Shown: piece after piece, positions 754-17,426 of the stretch
Numbering within the stretch: the first letter of the stretch is position 1
Layout of the letters: each line of letters opens with the position of its first letter
Assembly: GCA_947481575.1 (NCBI GenBank)
Contig: CANKGV010000003.1
Span: 1-51,933, forward strand
Source of the DNA: Alphaproteobacteria bacterium
Lineage (GTDB): Bacteria > Pseudomonadota > Alphaproteobacteria > UBA2966 > CAIVPW01
Direction: 5' to 3'
Length of the DNA: 51,933 nt
Notes under the pieces: model-generated
Told to the model about the DNA's origin: nothing
Databases searched by the model: none
Seen by the model: the letters and a program-made list of their open reading frames with translations, nothing else
Made by a program: the position numbers and the translations under genes

Positions 754-807
754 GCCCGCCATCGCGTGCGCCTGGACTTTTGGACGGCGCGACCATACTT
801 CCGAACC

Positions 808-1008
808 CTGCGGAAGAGACCGGATTCTGGGCATTTTGAATCCGGCGCCGAAGGAGCAACCGCCCCGGAAACTCTCAGGCAAGCGGGACCGCAGGGGGAC
901 CGAAACTCTGGAAAGCGGGCTGCTGGAATGGCGCCCCACCGAAGGAGTAAACCGCAGTCGTTGGCGTTGCCCGCGGCGGCGGTGAATCTCTCAGGTTCAC
1001 CGACAGAG
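808..1008 (+). promoter_or_regulatory. tandem glycine riboswitch
   Basis: Two consecutive glycine aptamers form the gcvT leader. Aptamer 1 spans 808-894: its P1 arms CTGCGG (808-813) and CCGCAG (889-894) pair, and it carries the conserved CGCCGAAGGAGCAAC and CTCTCAGGCAA elements. Aptamer 2 spans 906-1008: CTCTG (906-910) pairs with CAGAG (1004-1008), and it carries CACCGAAGGAGTAAACC and ATCTCTCAGGTTCACCGACAGAGG. Only a short linker separates them, the standard two-aptamer arrangement. In this class glycine binding usually turns on glycine cleavage genes. No clear intrinsic terminator is visible between 1009 and the GTG at 1064, so control may act at translation. Confidence 0.93.
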
Positions 1009-1063
1009 GGGGCATCACGGCCGCGGATAGTCGCGGTCGCACGCGCCCTGTCGGGAGAACCCA

Positions 1064-12207: not shown

Positions 12208-12525
12208 CTAGTTCCCCGGCGTATCCGCCTCGGCGCTGATCCGCGAAGCTGCGCGGAACGCGGTGATGATCCCGCTGGCGAACCCGAACGTTAGGAACAC
12301 CAGGAACAACCAGGGACGGGTGTTGAGCCAGCCATCGAGCAGCCAGCCAAATCCGCCCCCAACCACAAGAGCCGCAACCAATTCGGTGGCCACACGAAAG
12401 GCCACCCCCATACCACGCGGCGCGAACGGTCTGCTCAGGCGCGGGTCCGGAACATCGGCCCCCTGCGCCTTGCGCAGCCGATCACTGAATTCCTTCAGGT
12501 CCGGCGGCTGAGGCTCTTCAGTCAT
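12208..12525 (-). CDS. atpI: ATP synthase assembly protein AtpI
   Basis: This small membrane protein (about 105 residues) encoded first in alphaproteobacterial F0 operons helps c-ring assembly or ion supply. An acidic N-terminus ([13 protein letters not shown]) is followed by two hydrophobic helices ([18 protein letters not shown] and [18 protein letters not shown]). The ATG at 12525 is chosen because the upstream in-frame ATG at 12558 falls inside the predicted -10 box. Confidence 0.88.
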
Positions 12526-12554: not shown

Positions 12555-12583
12555 ACAATACGGTTGGCGCTGGGGCCTGTCAA
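12555..12583 (-). promoter_or_regulatory. sigma70-like promoter of the atp (F0) operon
   Basis: Read on the minus strand, TTGACA (12578-12583) and TATTGT (12555-12560) are separated by 17 bp. The expected transcription start is near 12548, about 23 nt before the atpI ATG at 12525. The -35 is a perfect consensus match. Confidence 0.65.
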
Positions 12584-12676
12584 CCATACCAGACCTGGGT
12601 GCAAGTGCTTGACCAACCACGATAATTCTCCGGTTGCGACGCCGCGCCGCGGGGGCTTTCACCAACTTAGCCGTTC

Positions 12677-12792
12677 GCGCGTTACTACGCGTGATTTACG
12701 CGCGGGGTGGGCACCGTAAGTACGGTCGATTTACGGTGGGGCGCGACCCCGCTTGTGCATGCGTTTTGCGTAAATACGCGAGATTTACGCCA
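12677..12792. repeat. three structured 27-bp repeats upstream of the atp promoter
   Basis: Units at 12677-12703, 12712-12738 and 12766-12792 share the pattern CGT(A/T)ANTACG-N3-GATTTACG. In each unit the first arm is the reverse complement of the second, and the second is repeated after GATT: CGCGT/ACGCG/ACGCG, ACCGT/ACGGT/ACGGT and GCGT/ACGC/ACGC. The outer bases differ between units but change together, so the symmetry is kept. They lie 94 to 210 bp upstream of the atp -35 box and before the end of the restriction pseudogene. The flanks 12584-12676 and 12793-12918 show no gene. Confidence 0.8.
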
Positions 12793-12918
12793 GCTCAACG
12801 GCGGCCATCCCGGACTCCCGGGAATGAGGGGAGGATAGACGATGATGCGGGTTGTGTCAATACGAAGTGTATTCAGGTTCGTGCATCCCGCCGAACAGCC
12901 GGAAGCGCACGAGGCCAC

Positions 12919-15900
12919 CTAGACCAGCGGTGGTACGCCTTGCGTCGCGGCGAAGTTGTGAAGCGACTCTGGGCCTTGCCACGGCACATGGCCCTCCTTC
13001 ACAGCAGCGTAACTGGCGTCAAGGTGGGGCCCGAGGAGCAGCACCGCCGCGATCCGACGTACCATGAGCGAGAAGTACTGCACTTCATCCGGGGAGAGCG
13101 GCCTTTTGAGCAGGTCGCGTTCGCGATAACTGAGCCACTTCTTGAGGACCTGATACCCGGCCAAGGTGTAGTCCGCACACTGCGGCTGGAACATTCGACC
13201 AATAGGCACTTCCGTTCAGGTAGATGTCGAAGGTGGTCATCCCCACAAGCGAGAGGAGGTCCGAGGAACTGAGTCCGAGCTTCTCTTCTCCGCCTTTCAA
13301 CTCAGCAAGTTCCTGTTCCGTGTAGTTGCGCCCGACTGTTTTTCCGCGCGCCGGCATGACAATTCCACCACCCTGAGCGTGGCCCCACCCGGCAGTTAGC
13401 GCGAAATCGTCCCCGGCCAGGTTTCCGCCACCGACGCGGCTCGGCTTTGCAATGAGTTTCAGTTCGGGTCTTACCGCTCCTGCGGTCACCCCCGGCACTG
13501 GAGATTCAGGGTCGAGCAACGCGACGAGCGTCTGTCCCAATTTGGCCGAAGCAATTAGGGTTTCGGAGCCCTTCGGGAGGGGAATGCGCGGCCAGCCCAT
13601 CCGCAAGGCGTCATGGTTCTCGTGGCGATACTGGGGACAGTGGAGTATCGCCACTACATGGTGAAAGAGGTCATCCGTTTCGGCGCGATTGGCCTTCAAG
13701 TACACCCCTGCCGACTTTGAAATGTTGGGGACTTTGGTGTCCCCTTGGGCCATCCGCATTGGGAAGAAGCTCGAAAGGCCCGATCCGAAGTTATCGGCCA
13801 GATGCCGAACGATTGTCCCTCTCGAGAAGGCCTCTTTGGCCTGCTTCTCGCGCGCCTCTAGCCAAACGTTTCCTTCAAAGGTGTGGGGCCATGACTCGGC
13901 GCGGTTCCTGTCGAGAAGCTTTGTCTCTGGTTCTCGATAGAGCCAGCGCACGTCGAAGGGGCGGTAGGCGTAGCGCACGACGGCGTCGGCCTTCCGTCCC
14001 CGCTTCAACAAGGTAGTGCGTGTCGCTACGGGATCGTAACCGGAGTTGCCCTCCATGACGGAATGGAACAAGCGCGCCATCTCCTCATGACTCACCTTTG
14101 GGTCAAAGTAGGCGGACAGCCGCTCTTCCAGCGTCTTTCTGTCAATCGCGACAAGGAAGTCGTCGCGACTGGTCTTCACTCCAGGGAACGATGCCGGGAG
14201 CAAGTCATGAAGTTCGGGCCAGCTCGAATAGTCGGCGGACGCCGAGGCGGCTAGGAGCGGGAGACCGAGTGCGAGAGCAGGAGTTAAAGTCTCGTACAGT
14301 TGCGCCACAGCGGTCTCGGCTGTTGCCTAAAGCTGTTCGCGTTTGTCTTGTCCCCAAAGGTGTCGAAATTGGATCGTTGCCGCCGCGACATGTTCCTTGC
14401 GGCGAATCAGAGTTGAGATTGCGGTCCCGATCCCAATTCCCTCGCGATTGCGGTCTGTCGAGAAGATGCTTGGGTCGGGCCTTCCGTCAGGGGTGATCTT
14501 GCCCGTCTTGAACTTGTCGCCGTTGAGGCAGTCGATGCGGATGAAGTCGAATTCATTGAGGAAGCGTTCGCGCATTCCGGTGAAGGACATCCCATCCAAC
14601 CAAGAGTAGTTGGAAATAAGACACACAATGCCTTCGCCAGTCTTCTCGACGATCCGCCTTTCCGCCATGCGGAAGAATCGAACGTACAGATCGTTGAGCC
14701 CCTGCCCTTGCGGCTTTCTGACGCGATCGACGGTGCGATAAACGGTCGACAGTTCGCGCTCTTCGGAGACCGCCATTCCTGCGAACCCGTTGTACGGAGG
14801 GTTCCCAAGCACAACCAAGATCGGCGTTTGCTGTTTCACCGCGTCGGCGCGCGCGCGCTCTTCCTCCAACTCTGCGAAAGGTAGTGGGTCTTCTTCGACT
14901 GGCTCCCACCCCGTCAGTGCGTTCGTCAGATAGACCGCAGCGCGTTCGCTGCCGTCCTCGGCGAACGGCGCGCCTAGTGACTGCAGCAGCAAACCAATCT
15001 GGAGGTGTGACACAACGAACGGCGCCGGCAGGATCTCGAAGCCGAACACGCGCTGCGTCGCGGCTTTCCTTAGAACTGCGCCCTTCAGGGCCCCAAAACC
15101 GTTGCCCTCCAAACGCTCGTCGATGCGGCGCAGCACCTCCGCCAAGAACGCGCCCGTACCGCAGCAGGGATCGAGGACGAACACATGTTCGGCAGCGAGC
15201 CCCTCCGGGATGCCGAGGTCGTCCCTTAGTGCCGCGTCAACACGAGCGACCATGTAGCGGACTACCTCGATCGGCGTGTACCAGACACCTAGTTGCTGAC
15301 GGAGATCAGGATCGAACGCCTCAAGGAATGGCTCGTAGAAATATTGAACCGCTTCGCTCTCTCGGAACCGAGTGAAGAACTGCGTCCGGTTGACTCGGTT
15401 CAGGGCATGGGCAGCCCAATCCAGCACCTCGACGAGGCCAAGAGGTTCTAGGCGGCCCGGGTCAGCGAGTTGCTGGAAAAGGGCCCGTAGCATCGGCACC
15501 CTCAGGTGCCAGCCGGAAAGTCTCCAATCGAACGCCTTCGCAGGCAACGGAGTTTGTTGGGCCCACAACACCCACGCAGAGAACACTCCATAGAAGAGTG
15601 TCTGAACAAGCGTCGAGCGGAAGAAATGTTCGCCGCGTTCGCCGGTGAAGTGCGAGCCCAGGGCTTCCTCTAGCGAGGATCGAACTAGCGCGAGCGCCGG
15701 CAGGTCGCCTGCAGTGTCAACGCGCCGTAGGGCATCGCGAGCATATGACGCAAGGAGCCACGCAACATCCTTCGGCTCCGTCAGACTGACCGGCACCGTG
15801 AGAGCGCGGCGGAGGTACTCGCCTAGCGCACGTCCCTTGGTGGCGGCGGTCTTGTGAGCTTGTTCTGCCGCTTCCCAAAGCTGATCGGCGGACTCAACGA

Positions 15901-16363
15901 GCCGGAAGTGCTCAAGCTGAATCGGGTTTCCAGCAGAGTCCTCAGCGATCAGGAGGAAGTGCCGGAGGTTGGTTACGAGAACGTGCCGATAAGTCGCCCA
16001 GTACTTGCTGACCTGCTTCGTCTCTGCGGTGAGCCAAGCGTCATCACTGACCTTCTTGACCTCAATGACTCCCCGCTCGGGCATTGCGCCGGGACGGGGC
16101 TTTCCCTTCTGACACTGGCTTGCGGTGTACAGGCCGAAATCAGGATGTCCAGCCCCCGCGCTCGCCAACTCGACAACGCGGAAGACTTTCGGCTTGAGGT
16201 CGAGGCCGATATCGTTGAGCAGTGAACTCAGTGCGGGATAGTAGGACCGCTCGTCGGTTCCGCCGCCGGTTGAGTGAACCCGGTGAAGGTCGGCCAGATA
16301 GTTGGCGACGGCCCGTTCGAGCTTGTCCTGCACCCAGCCCCCCCCCCCCCCAACGCCAGACAA
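12919..16363 (-). pseudogene. Type ISP-like restriction-modification enzyme, broken
   Basis: This single-polypeptide restriction-methylation gene of about 1,140 codons has two lesions. The N-terminal part has PD-(D/E)XK-like residues (HPDFGLY, then GVIEVKK). An adenine methyltransferase core follows with motif I (VLDPCCGTGAFLAEVL) and motif IV (NPPYNG), then a C-terminal Type ISP specificity domain (AGYQVLKKWLSYRERDLL). An amber TAG at 14327-14329 interrupts REQL-stop-ATAETAVAQLYE in frame. One extra base near 13175 shifts the end; removing it restores AVWDYTLAGYQ. No helicase domain is visible between nuclease and methylase, unlike LlaBIII. The 5' end is a TTG at 16363 or a GTG at 16333, next to a G14 tract. 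Its base use looks less GC-rich than its neighbours, which suits acquired DNA. Confidence 0.85.
16338..16351 (-). repeat. G14 homopolymer at the 5' end of the restriction gene
   Basis: Fourteen consecutive C on the plus strand read as G14 on the coding strand, 4 nt before the GTG candidate start and inside the reading frame that begins with the TTG at 16363. A frame opening at an upstream ATG (16403) is out of frame at G14 but would be in frame at G13 or G16. Tracts of this kind slip during replication. Confidence 0.85.
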
Positions 16364-16572: not shown

Positions 16573-16875
16573 CTACGCCGCTTCCCGGCCCTTGTAGGGT
16601 TTGATCTTGGCCACCTGGGCTGCGATGGCGCGCTTGGCGGCCAGCGTATCGTGGGCGTTCTGGAGCCGGAGGAAATAGCCTTCGGACAGGCCGAAAAACT
16701 TGCACAGGCGCAGGTCGGTGTCGGCGGTGATGTCGCGCGTTCCGTTGACGATGGCGTGGATGCGGTTGGGCGGTACGCCCAGGGCGTGGGCCAGCTGGTT
16801 CTGGCTGATGCCGATTTCGTCCAAGAACTCGTGCCGGAGAATTGCGCCCGGGTGCGGGTTGGGAAGCTGGGCCAT
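16573..16875 (-). CDS. HigA-family HTH antitoxin-like protein
   Basis: This 100-residue XRE-type DNA-binding protein has HPGAILRHEFLDEIGISQNQ, then the helix-turn-helix LAHALGVPPNRIHAIVNG and DITADTDLRLCKFFG, all typical of HigA antidotes. No HigB toxin gene adjoins it. It starts 4 nt after hepT ends and so appears to be the third gene of a mntA-hepT-higA operon. It may act as the autorepressor of that operon, or be a leftover antitoxin. Confidence 0.8.
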   Translation of the reverse strand: MAQLPNPHPGAILRHEFLDEIGISQNQLAHALGVPPNRIHAIVNGTRDITADTDLRLCKFFGLSEGYFLRLQNAHDTLAAKRAIAAQVAKIKPYKGREAA

Positions 16876-16879
16876 CGAG

Positions 16880-17125
16880 CTATTGGTCCGGCAGGAGGCC
16901 GCTCAGGGTCGCGATGAGTTTGGGCAGGTCCTCTTGCACGGTACGCCAGACCAACCTGCTGTCAATCGCGTCATAGCCGTGCACGATGACATGGCGGAAC
17001 CCGACGATCTTGCGAAAGTCCGGGATGCGTTCCGCCGCCAGCGGGTCGATGGCGCGGGTGAACGCAATGATCGCGCAGGCCGCCTCGCGGGCGTCCCAAA
17101 GGTACTTGCGGGGATCACGCTCCAA
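16880..17125 (-). CDS. hepT: HepT-like toxin (DUF86), shortened
   Basis: This 81-residue HEPN-family RNase-like toxin carries the Rx4HxY active motif as Arg44-His49-Tyr51 (RHVIVHGY), and the Tyr is the residue adenylylated by MntA in studied systems. The N-terminus (DPRKYLWDAREAACAIIAFT) joins directly to AIDPLAAERIPDFRKIVGF. The roughly 30 residues normally between them, including the AVERQFEIIGEAL-type helix, are missing. The start is TTG at 17125 and overlaps mntA by 11 nt. The catalytic end is intact, but the lost helix may affect folding or dimer contacts. Confidence 0.8.
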   Translation of the reverse strand: MERDPRKYLWDAREAACAIIAFTRAIDPLAAERIPDFRKIVGFRHVIVHGYDAIDSRLVWRTVQEDLPKLIATLSGLLPDQ

Positions 17126-17426
17126 AGACTTCGACCCGCGACCGGTCGACGCTGGCCTTAAGGTACGGGTTGCGAATCGCGCCGGGCATCAACAGGTCGA
17201 CCGGGCGGCCGAACACGCCCTCCAGCGCTTCCTTGAGGTCGAAGAAGTTGCCGAGAGACATGCCGTCCGGGTGTTCGGTGAACTCGACCAGGAAATCGAT
17301 GTCGCTATGCGCGGGATCGAAGTCGTGCTCGCGCGCGGCCGAGCCGAACACCTCTAGCCGCCGCACGTGGAAACGGCGGCACAGGGCGGCGACTTCTGCG
17401 TTCTTTGCGGCGATCAGCTGCACCAT
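17115..17426 (-). CDS. mntA: MntA-like nucleotidyltransferase antitoxin
   Basis: This 103-residue minimal nucleotidyltransferase is the antitoxin of the HepT/MntA type. The catalytic motif is GS(28-29) and DID(42-44), with 12 residues between, two more than the usual GSx10DxD. LVEF and the following LKEALEGVFGRPVDLL segment fit the family. In studied systems it neutralises HepT by AMP transfer to tyrosine. It heads a leftward operon with hepT and the higA-like gene. Confidence 0.88.
   Translation of the reverse strand: MVQLIAAKNAEVAALCRRFHVRRLEVFGSAAREHDFDPAHSDIDFLVEFTEHPDGMSLGNFFDLKEALEGVFGRPVDLLMPGAIRNPYLKASVDRSRVEVFGA

Follow-up and report, generated by a model that had tools for sequence, protein, structure and literature searches.

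Alphaproteobacterial REPs carry a CGTC foot on stems of 8-9 bp, with loops of 4-5 nt and a CCA tail, and are arranged in head-to-head pairs (PMC3733652), and REPs usually exceed 100 copies per genome (PMC2817692). Like these CGTC-tagged elements (PMC3733652), the units described here, which came to light in a 51,933-nt stretch of an alphaproteobacterial draft genome (hereafter, the window), are short, dispersed hairpins that are mostly intergenic, often lie near gene ends and are probably transcribed. They are unlike them in having three arms and no CGTC foot, with a 10-bp stem and a 7-nt loop that copies the 5′ arm, and in forming same-strand arrays of few copies that are accompanied by a promoter. 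An unpaired end tag of the GTAG/CGTC kind was not constant among the collected units, the flanks of which vary and pair together, and the source genome (G000) holds about 22 sense units, well short of the REP copy number. At two loci in this genome (L005 and L002), sequences like ordinary CGTC-tagged REP hairpins (CGTCATGGCCGGACTTGTTCCAGCCATCCACG) lie near three-arm units, so that the genome may hold both kinds.

Rickettsia palindromic elements (RPEs) are palindromes found inside reading frames and between genes. Three-arm palindromes likewise occur in both settings, but unlike RPEs, they are mostly intergenic and stand behind a promoter, and their coding copies are found only in genes for DUF5681 proteins. 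MITEs are non-autonomous relatives of gene-bearing elements. The solo copies here likewise look like the 5′ end of a unit that carries a gene, and G000 has more of them than of that unit. Unlike in MITEs, neither terminal inverted repeats nor target duplications were found; similarity fades without a shared boundary at the inspected loci, among which there was no clean empty-site pair, and DUF5681 is, to our knowledge, not a known transposase. With leaders of the attenuator or riboswitch type, the units share the arrangement of one RNA strand with two possible partners in an early transcript. They differ from such leaders in that the competing strands are identical and the units are tandem, in that no terminator was found in the window cassette, and in that many loci have no downstream target.

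The first-pass annotation of the window reported three matching repeats upstream of the F0 ATP synthase operon, and these are confirmed: exact matches to the pattern CGTNANTACGN3GATTTACG lie at 12680-12700, 12715-12735 and 12769-12789, all on the plus strand, against a chance expectation of 0.15 for the window, and three matches were reached in 0 of 100 shuffles. No other copy is present in the window, even with up to three mismatches. On the minus strand, the unit takes the form XCGTAAAT-CNN-XCGTA-TTTACGX′, in which the stem has as its 5′ arm what looked like a third arm on the plus strand, and the middle arm lies inside the loop. The outer arm base X is G, C and G across the units in order of transcription and is constant inside each. 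The claim that the outer bases agree within every unit thus holds for X in all three, although the left-most unit has a flaw further into the arm (GCGTT vs. GCGTA). The features of the locus are as follows.

12855-12860, minus strand: −35-like TTGACA of the cassette's own promoter (promoter scan)
12832-12837, minus strand: −10-like TATCCT of the cassette's own promoter (promoter scan)
12860-12872, minus strand: operator-like ATACACTTCGTAT, overlapping the −35 element (seen directly in the sequence)
12763-12795, minus strand: three-arm unit 1, transcribed first, X = G, AGCTGGCGTAAATCTCGCGTATTTACGCAAAAC (R1 model, E 7.9e-9)
12709-12741, minus strand: three-arm unit 2, X = C, CCCCACCGTAAATCGACCGTACTTACGGTGCCC (R1 model, E 5.9e-7)
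12674-12706, minus strand: three-arm unit 3, X = G, CCCGCGCGTAAATCACGCGTAGTAACGCGCGAA (R1 model, E 4.5e-7)
12555-12583, minus strand: native atpI promoter, TTGACA-17-TATTGT, outside the cassette and downstream of the units (promoter scan and relatives)
12208-12525, minus strand: atpI, the adjacent gene, with its start codon assigned by sequence inspection (PF09527, E 2e-13)

The cassette promoter (TTGACA, 17 nt, TATCCT) has 10 of 12 consensus matches, and the promoter scan returned 2 sites of such quality against 0.0 in shuffles. Several other features were noted in the window. The cassette adjoins a type ISP/IIG restriction-modification enzyme at 12922-16363 (minus strand), which is split across two or more reading frames (N6_Mtase and Eco57I parts, then Type_ISP_C) and appears broken or frameshifted. 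At 16576-17426 (minus strand), a HigA-like helix-turn-helix protein is followed by a short HepT-like and MNT nucleotidyltransferase-like pair, both of which resemble toxin-antitoxin modules. Two glycine riboswitch aptamers lie side by side at 801-1016 (plus strand; 63.7 and 47.9 bits).

The repeats are not peculiar to this locus. The source genome, a 2.45 Mb draft, contains 12 exact copies of the pattern, and 0 of the reversed control pattern. Searched with R1, a covariance model built from 31 units, it yields the roughly 22 sense units, which fall into about 11 groups, these copy numbers resting on the pattern and model searches together. R1 matches were also found in five genomes of genus g4; the other two genera of the same family gave no R1 match at E <= 1, and beyond the family, the order and class samples contained no units. 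Clear matches in the collection of named genomes were the family's own drafts, some of them labelled Rhizobium sp. Q54. The other matches there, in Marinimicrobia, Moritella and Clostridia, were singles at about chance level, and those in two viral contigs were also at about chance level. Three-arm units occur only in two genera of a single uncultured family of Alphaproteobacteria. No covariance model of Rfam 15 matched the window units or any of 11 loci, and the three-arm family is undescribed, is outside Rfam and is distinct from REPs by the features tested.

Many groups point at the 3′ end of an adjacent gene, such as purD or that of an M23 peptidase, and the gene common to L086 and L090 likewise has its 3′ end faced by an array (gene names outside the window were read from the protein sequence, with only DUF5681 assigned by profile search). 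Some units have decayed. Others persist between species, at an IalB-like gene and at lepA, where the units are kept in two genera and the unselected spacer has diverged. The lepA leaders (L063, L142, L144, L146) and locus L033 also contain another recurrent motif, GAGACCAAGC..CGTGATTGTCTCA.CGCTTG, whose complementary stems interleave in the manner of a pseudoknot; one of these stems becomes GGCAC:GTGCC in G007. The arrays at L002 (G000) and L095 (G007) lie upstream of a ACATAAAGATTTCTTTATG palindrome that resembles the SahR operator, and this palindrome precedes sahH in G000.

Among 59 distinct sense units from six genomes, collected with a score that left the outer columns out, the symmetry has been preserved while the sequence changed, far above chance, as had been proposed from the three window units. 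Columns 5:29 and 4:30 covary (P of 0.0003 or less, 42 non-redundant units), and columns 6:28 also covary against shuffled and slid controls, with no covariation in columns further out, in slid pairs or in the flanks of arm 2. The covarying outer columns therefore indicate a stem of arm 1 with arm 3 of about ten pairs. Because the shuffles keep relatedness, these counts are not independent events, and orthologous cases provide the firmer argument. Covarying base pairs of this kind are as expected of a structured element, and covariation alone fits RNA and single-stranded DNA alike. The suggestion of a selected binding array or RNA structure is thereby narrowed toward base pairing, which explains the symmetry better than half-sites for one protein do. 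Folding gave a divided answer: individual units are on average more stably folded than their shuffles (mean z −1.47), but the whole 206-nt leader does no better than its own (z −0.63).

The third arm is the unusual part. Arms 1 and 2 begin with the same base in 53 of the 59 units, against 24.6 in shuffles, and in 38 of the 42 non-redundant units; the two arms are identical in full in 46/59. In five units, the third base is A instead of G throughout all three arms (CGTA to CATA). At an orthologous place, unit 2 reads CCGTA/CCGTA in L078 and CCATA/CCATA/TATGG in L074, and the lepA leaders have CCGTA in G000 and G005 and CCATA in G004 and G007. At the IalB-like gene of G003, G004 and G006, CGTAAAT:ATTTACG passes via a mismatched state to CGCAAAT:ATTTGCG. 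Where arm 1 is unlike arm 2, arm 3 agrees sometimes with one and sometimes with the other. With a copy of the 5′ arm in the loop, arm 3 has two possible partners, arm 1 and arm 2. In the window units, pairing of arm 1 with arm 3 is dominant and the predicted probability of arm 2 with arm 3 is near 0, so an exchange of arms would have to be kinetic or assisted. The hairpin family is real, selected, dispersed and limited to one bacterial lineage, and its third arm is unusual.

The hairpins keep a fixed orientation to a promoter. Among 43 groups, promoter-like sites (score of 10 or more) were found upstream in the sense direction in 23 and in the antisense direction in 7; downstream, the corresponding counts were 1 and 0. 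The sole downstream site is at the window locus, where the native atp promoter lies. The sequence ATACGTATTGACA, related to ATACACTTCGTAT, occurs 4 times in the genome (up to one mismatch), always beside hairpins. The units may be transcribed from the cassette promoter.

All six family genomes that contain units also have PF18932 (DUF5681), and the two that lack units do not. At L104, L105, L108, L113 and L115, the same kind of promoter is followed by a unit in the first codons, before a GNPGRPKG-like motif, and some of these first-codon units have diverged. At the queA, irr and L058/L113 loci, the gene is present in one species, and in another there is only a unit, or a decayed gene with a unit, which is consistent with a common unit and derived solo arrays; the direction of these events would be from gene-bearing to solo. 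The DUF5681 proteins are under moderate constraint (pN/pS 0.41-0.62). G003 and G004 (L104-L118) have six DUF5681 matches each, mostly 33-45% identical, a lineage-specific expansion. Relatives of DUF5681 are rare in the rest of the class, and no hairpin was found beside them. Outside the family, DUF5681 relatives lie on plasmids, and two of these carry the label terminase small subunit. A search of solved structures with the DUF5681 sequence returned nothing relevant, and one phage paper mentions the domain.

We tentatively favour, at somewhat short of an even chance, a lineage-specific cassette of promoter and strand-exchange hairpins that belongs to DUF5681 gene units, with the solo arrays as derivatives. 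Each cassette would consist of a sigma-70-type promoter with a palindromic ATACGTA-type sequence and, about 45-190 nt further along the same strand, between one and four hairpin units. As RNA, a unit would fold into the 10-bp stem of arms 1 and 3, with arm 2 as a loop copy of the 5′ arm, and the 3′ arm could swap partners. The cassette would be the 5′ part of units encoding DUF5681 proteins, and solo arrays, including that of the window, would lack or have lost the gene. The hairpin would most likely serve the DUF5681 unit as a folded site for recognition or control, with its effect in cis on the early transcript. Against this reading stand the leader fold (z −0.63), the near-zero predicted pairing of arm 2 with arm 3 in the window units, the merely weak units retained in many divergent DUF5681 genes (the three-arm test, applied to DUF5681 coding regions, being too lenient to establish units there), the unit-free DUF5681 relatives outside the family, and the single DUF5681 gene for about 22 units in G000. 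A more ambitious form of the same idea, that this is a new RNA element in which the loop copies its own 5′ arm exactly, the 3′ arm exchanges partners, and tandem arrays control a selfish DUF5681 unit that has spread over the chromosome, is unlikely.

Of the rivals, a DNA-level repeat of the REP or MITE kind, the single-stranded fold of which serves copying or insertion by some enzyme, with the promoter as a passenger, is a possible if less than likely account. The copies are dispersed, intergenic with some coding, relatives are without copies at atp and rpsF, and the covariation alone is as compatible with single-stranded DNA as with RNA. However, neither a shared boundary nor a target duplication was seen at the inspected loci, some sites are of long standing (lepA has units in two genera), and the promoter keeps its orientation relative to the hairpins.

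The arms could also be alike without selection, as relics of template switching, an established process for imperfect palindromes, and the decay of some units agrees with this. We consider it improbable, as promoters and orientation are kept too, the lepA units persist in two genera despite the diverged unselected spacer, and the identity of arm 1 with arm 2 demands two coordinated switches. Double-stranded operators, in which a protein sits on three XCGTA half-sites (a direct repeat of two at 11-bp spacing plus an inverted third) and differing units suit differing paralogous proteins, are about as improbable. The 11-bp spacing is about one helical turn, and the identity of arms 1 and 2 is the tightest feature of the family; nevertheless, two extra covarying pairs lie outside arms 1 and 3 and none at arm 2, and G000 has both G and C units yet one DUF5681 gene.

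That the units regulate the atp operon, as the first-pass annotation proposed, is most improbable: they do lie upstream of atpI and are directed at it, but the native promoter is downstream of them and common to four unit-free relatives, and the identical kind of unit adjoins many unrelated genes. In G003, G004, G005 and G007, atpI is preceded by a TTGACA-N17-TATTGT promoter, with no units there; in the window, this promoter (12583-12555) sits between the units and atpI, placing them outside the operon transcript. The rpsF array is also upstream of a promoter-like block common to relatives, which have no units at rpsF. A role as mRNA leader of atpI or rpsF was rejected on the strength of these unit-free relatives that share the native promoter blocks. 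By inspection, lepA has a conserved TTGTGA-N17-TACAAG-like block after its units, which may be its native promoter. The annotation had named random scatter, or loss in close relatives of the same gene order, as evidence against its reading; for atp this was largely found, with units scattered over many loci and lost in relatives, but units persist between species at lepA and at the IalB-like gene. The arrays adjoin atp and rpsF, and stand outside their regulation.

An apparent operon regulator can thus prove to be a dispersed repeat after comparison with relatives. The hairpin family offers a handle on DUF5681, which is uncharacterised and has no solved-structure relative by sequence. Three short arms that change in concert across dozens of natural copies are an unusually clear sign of selection, and this selection bears on a nucleic-acid fold that could pair in two ways.
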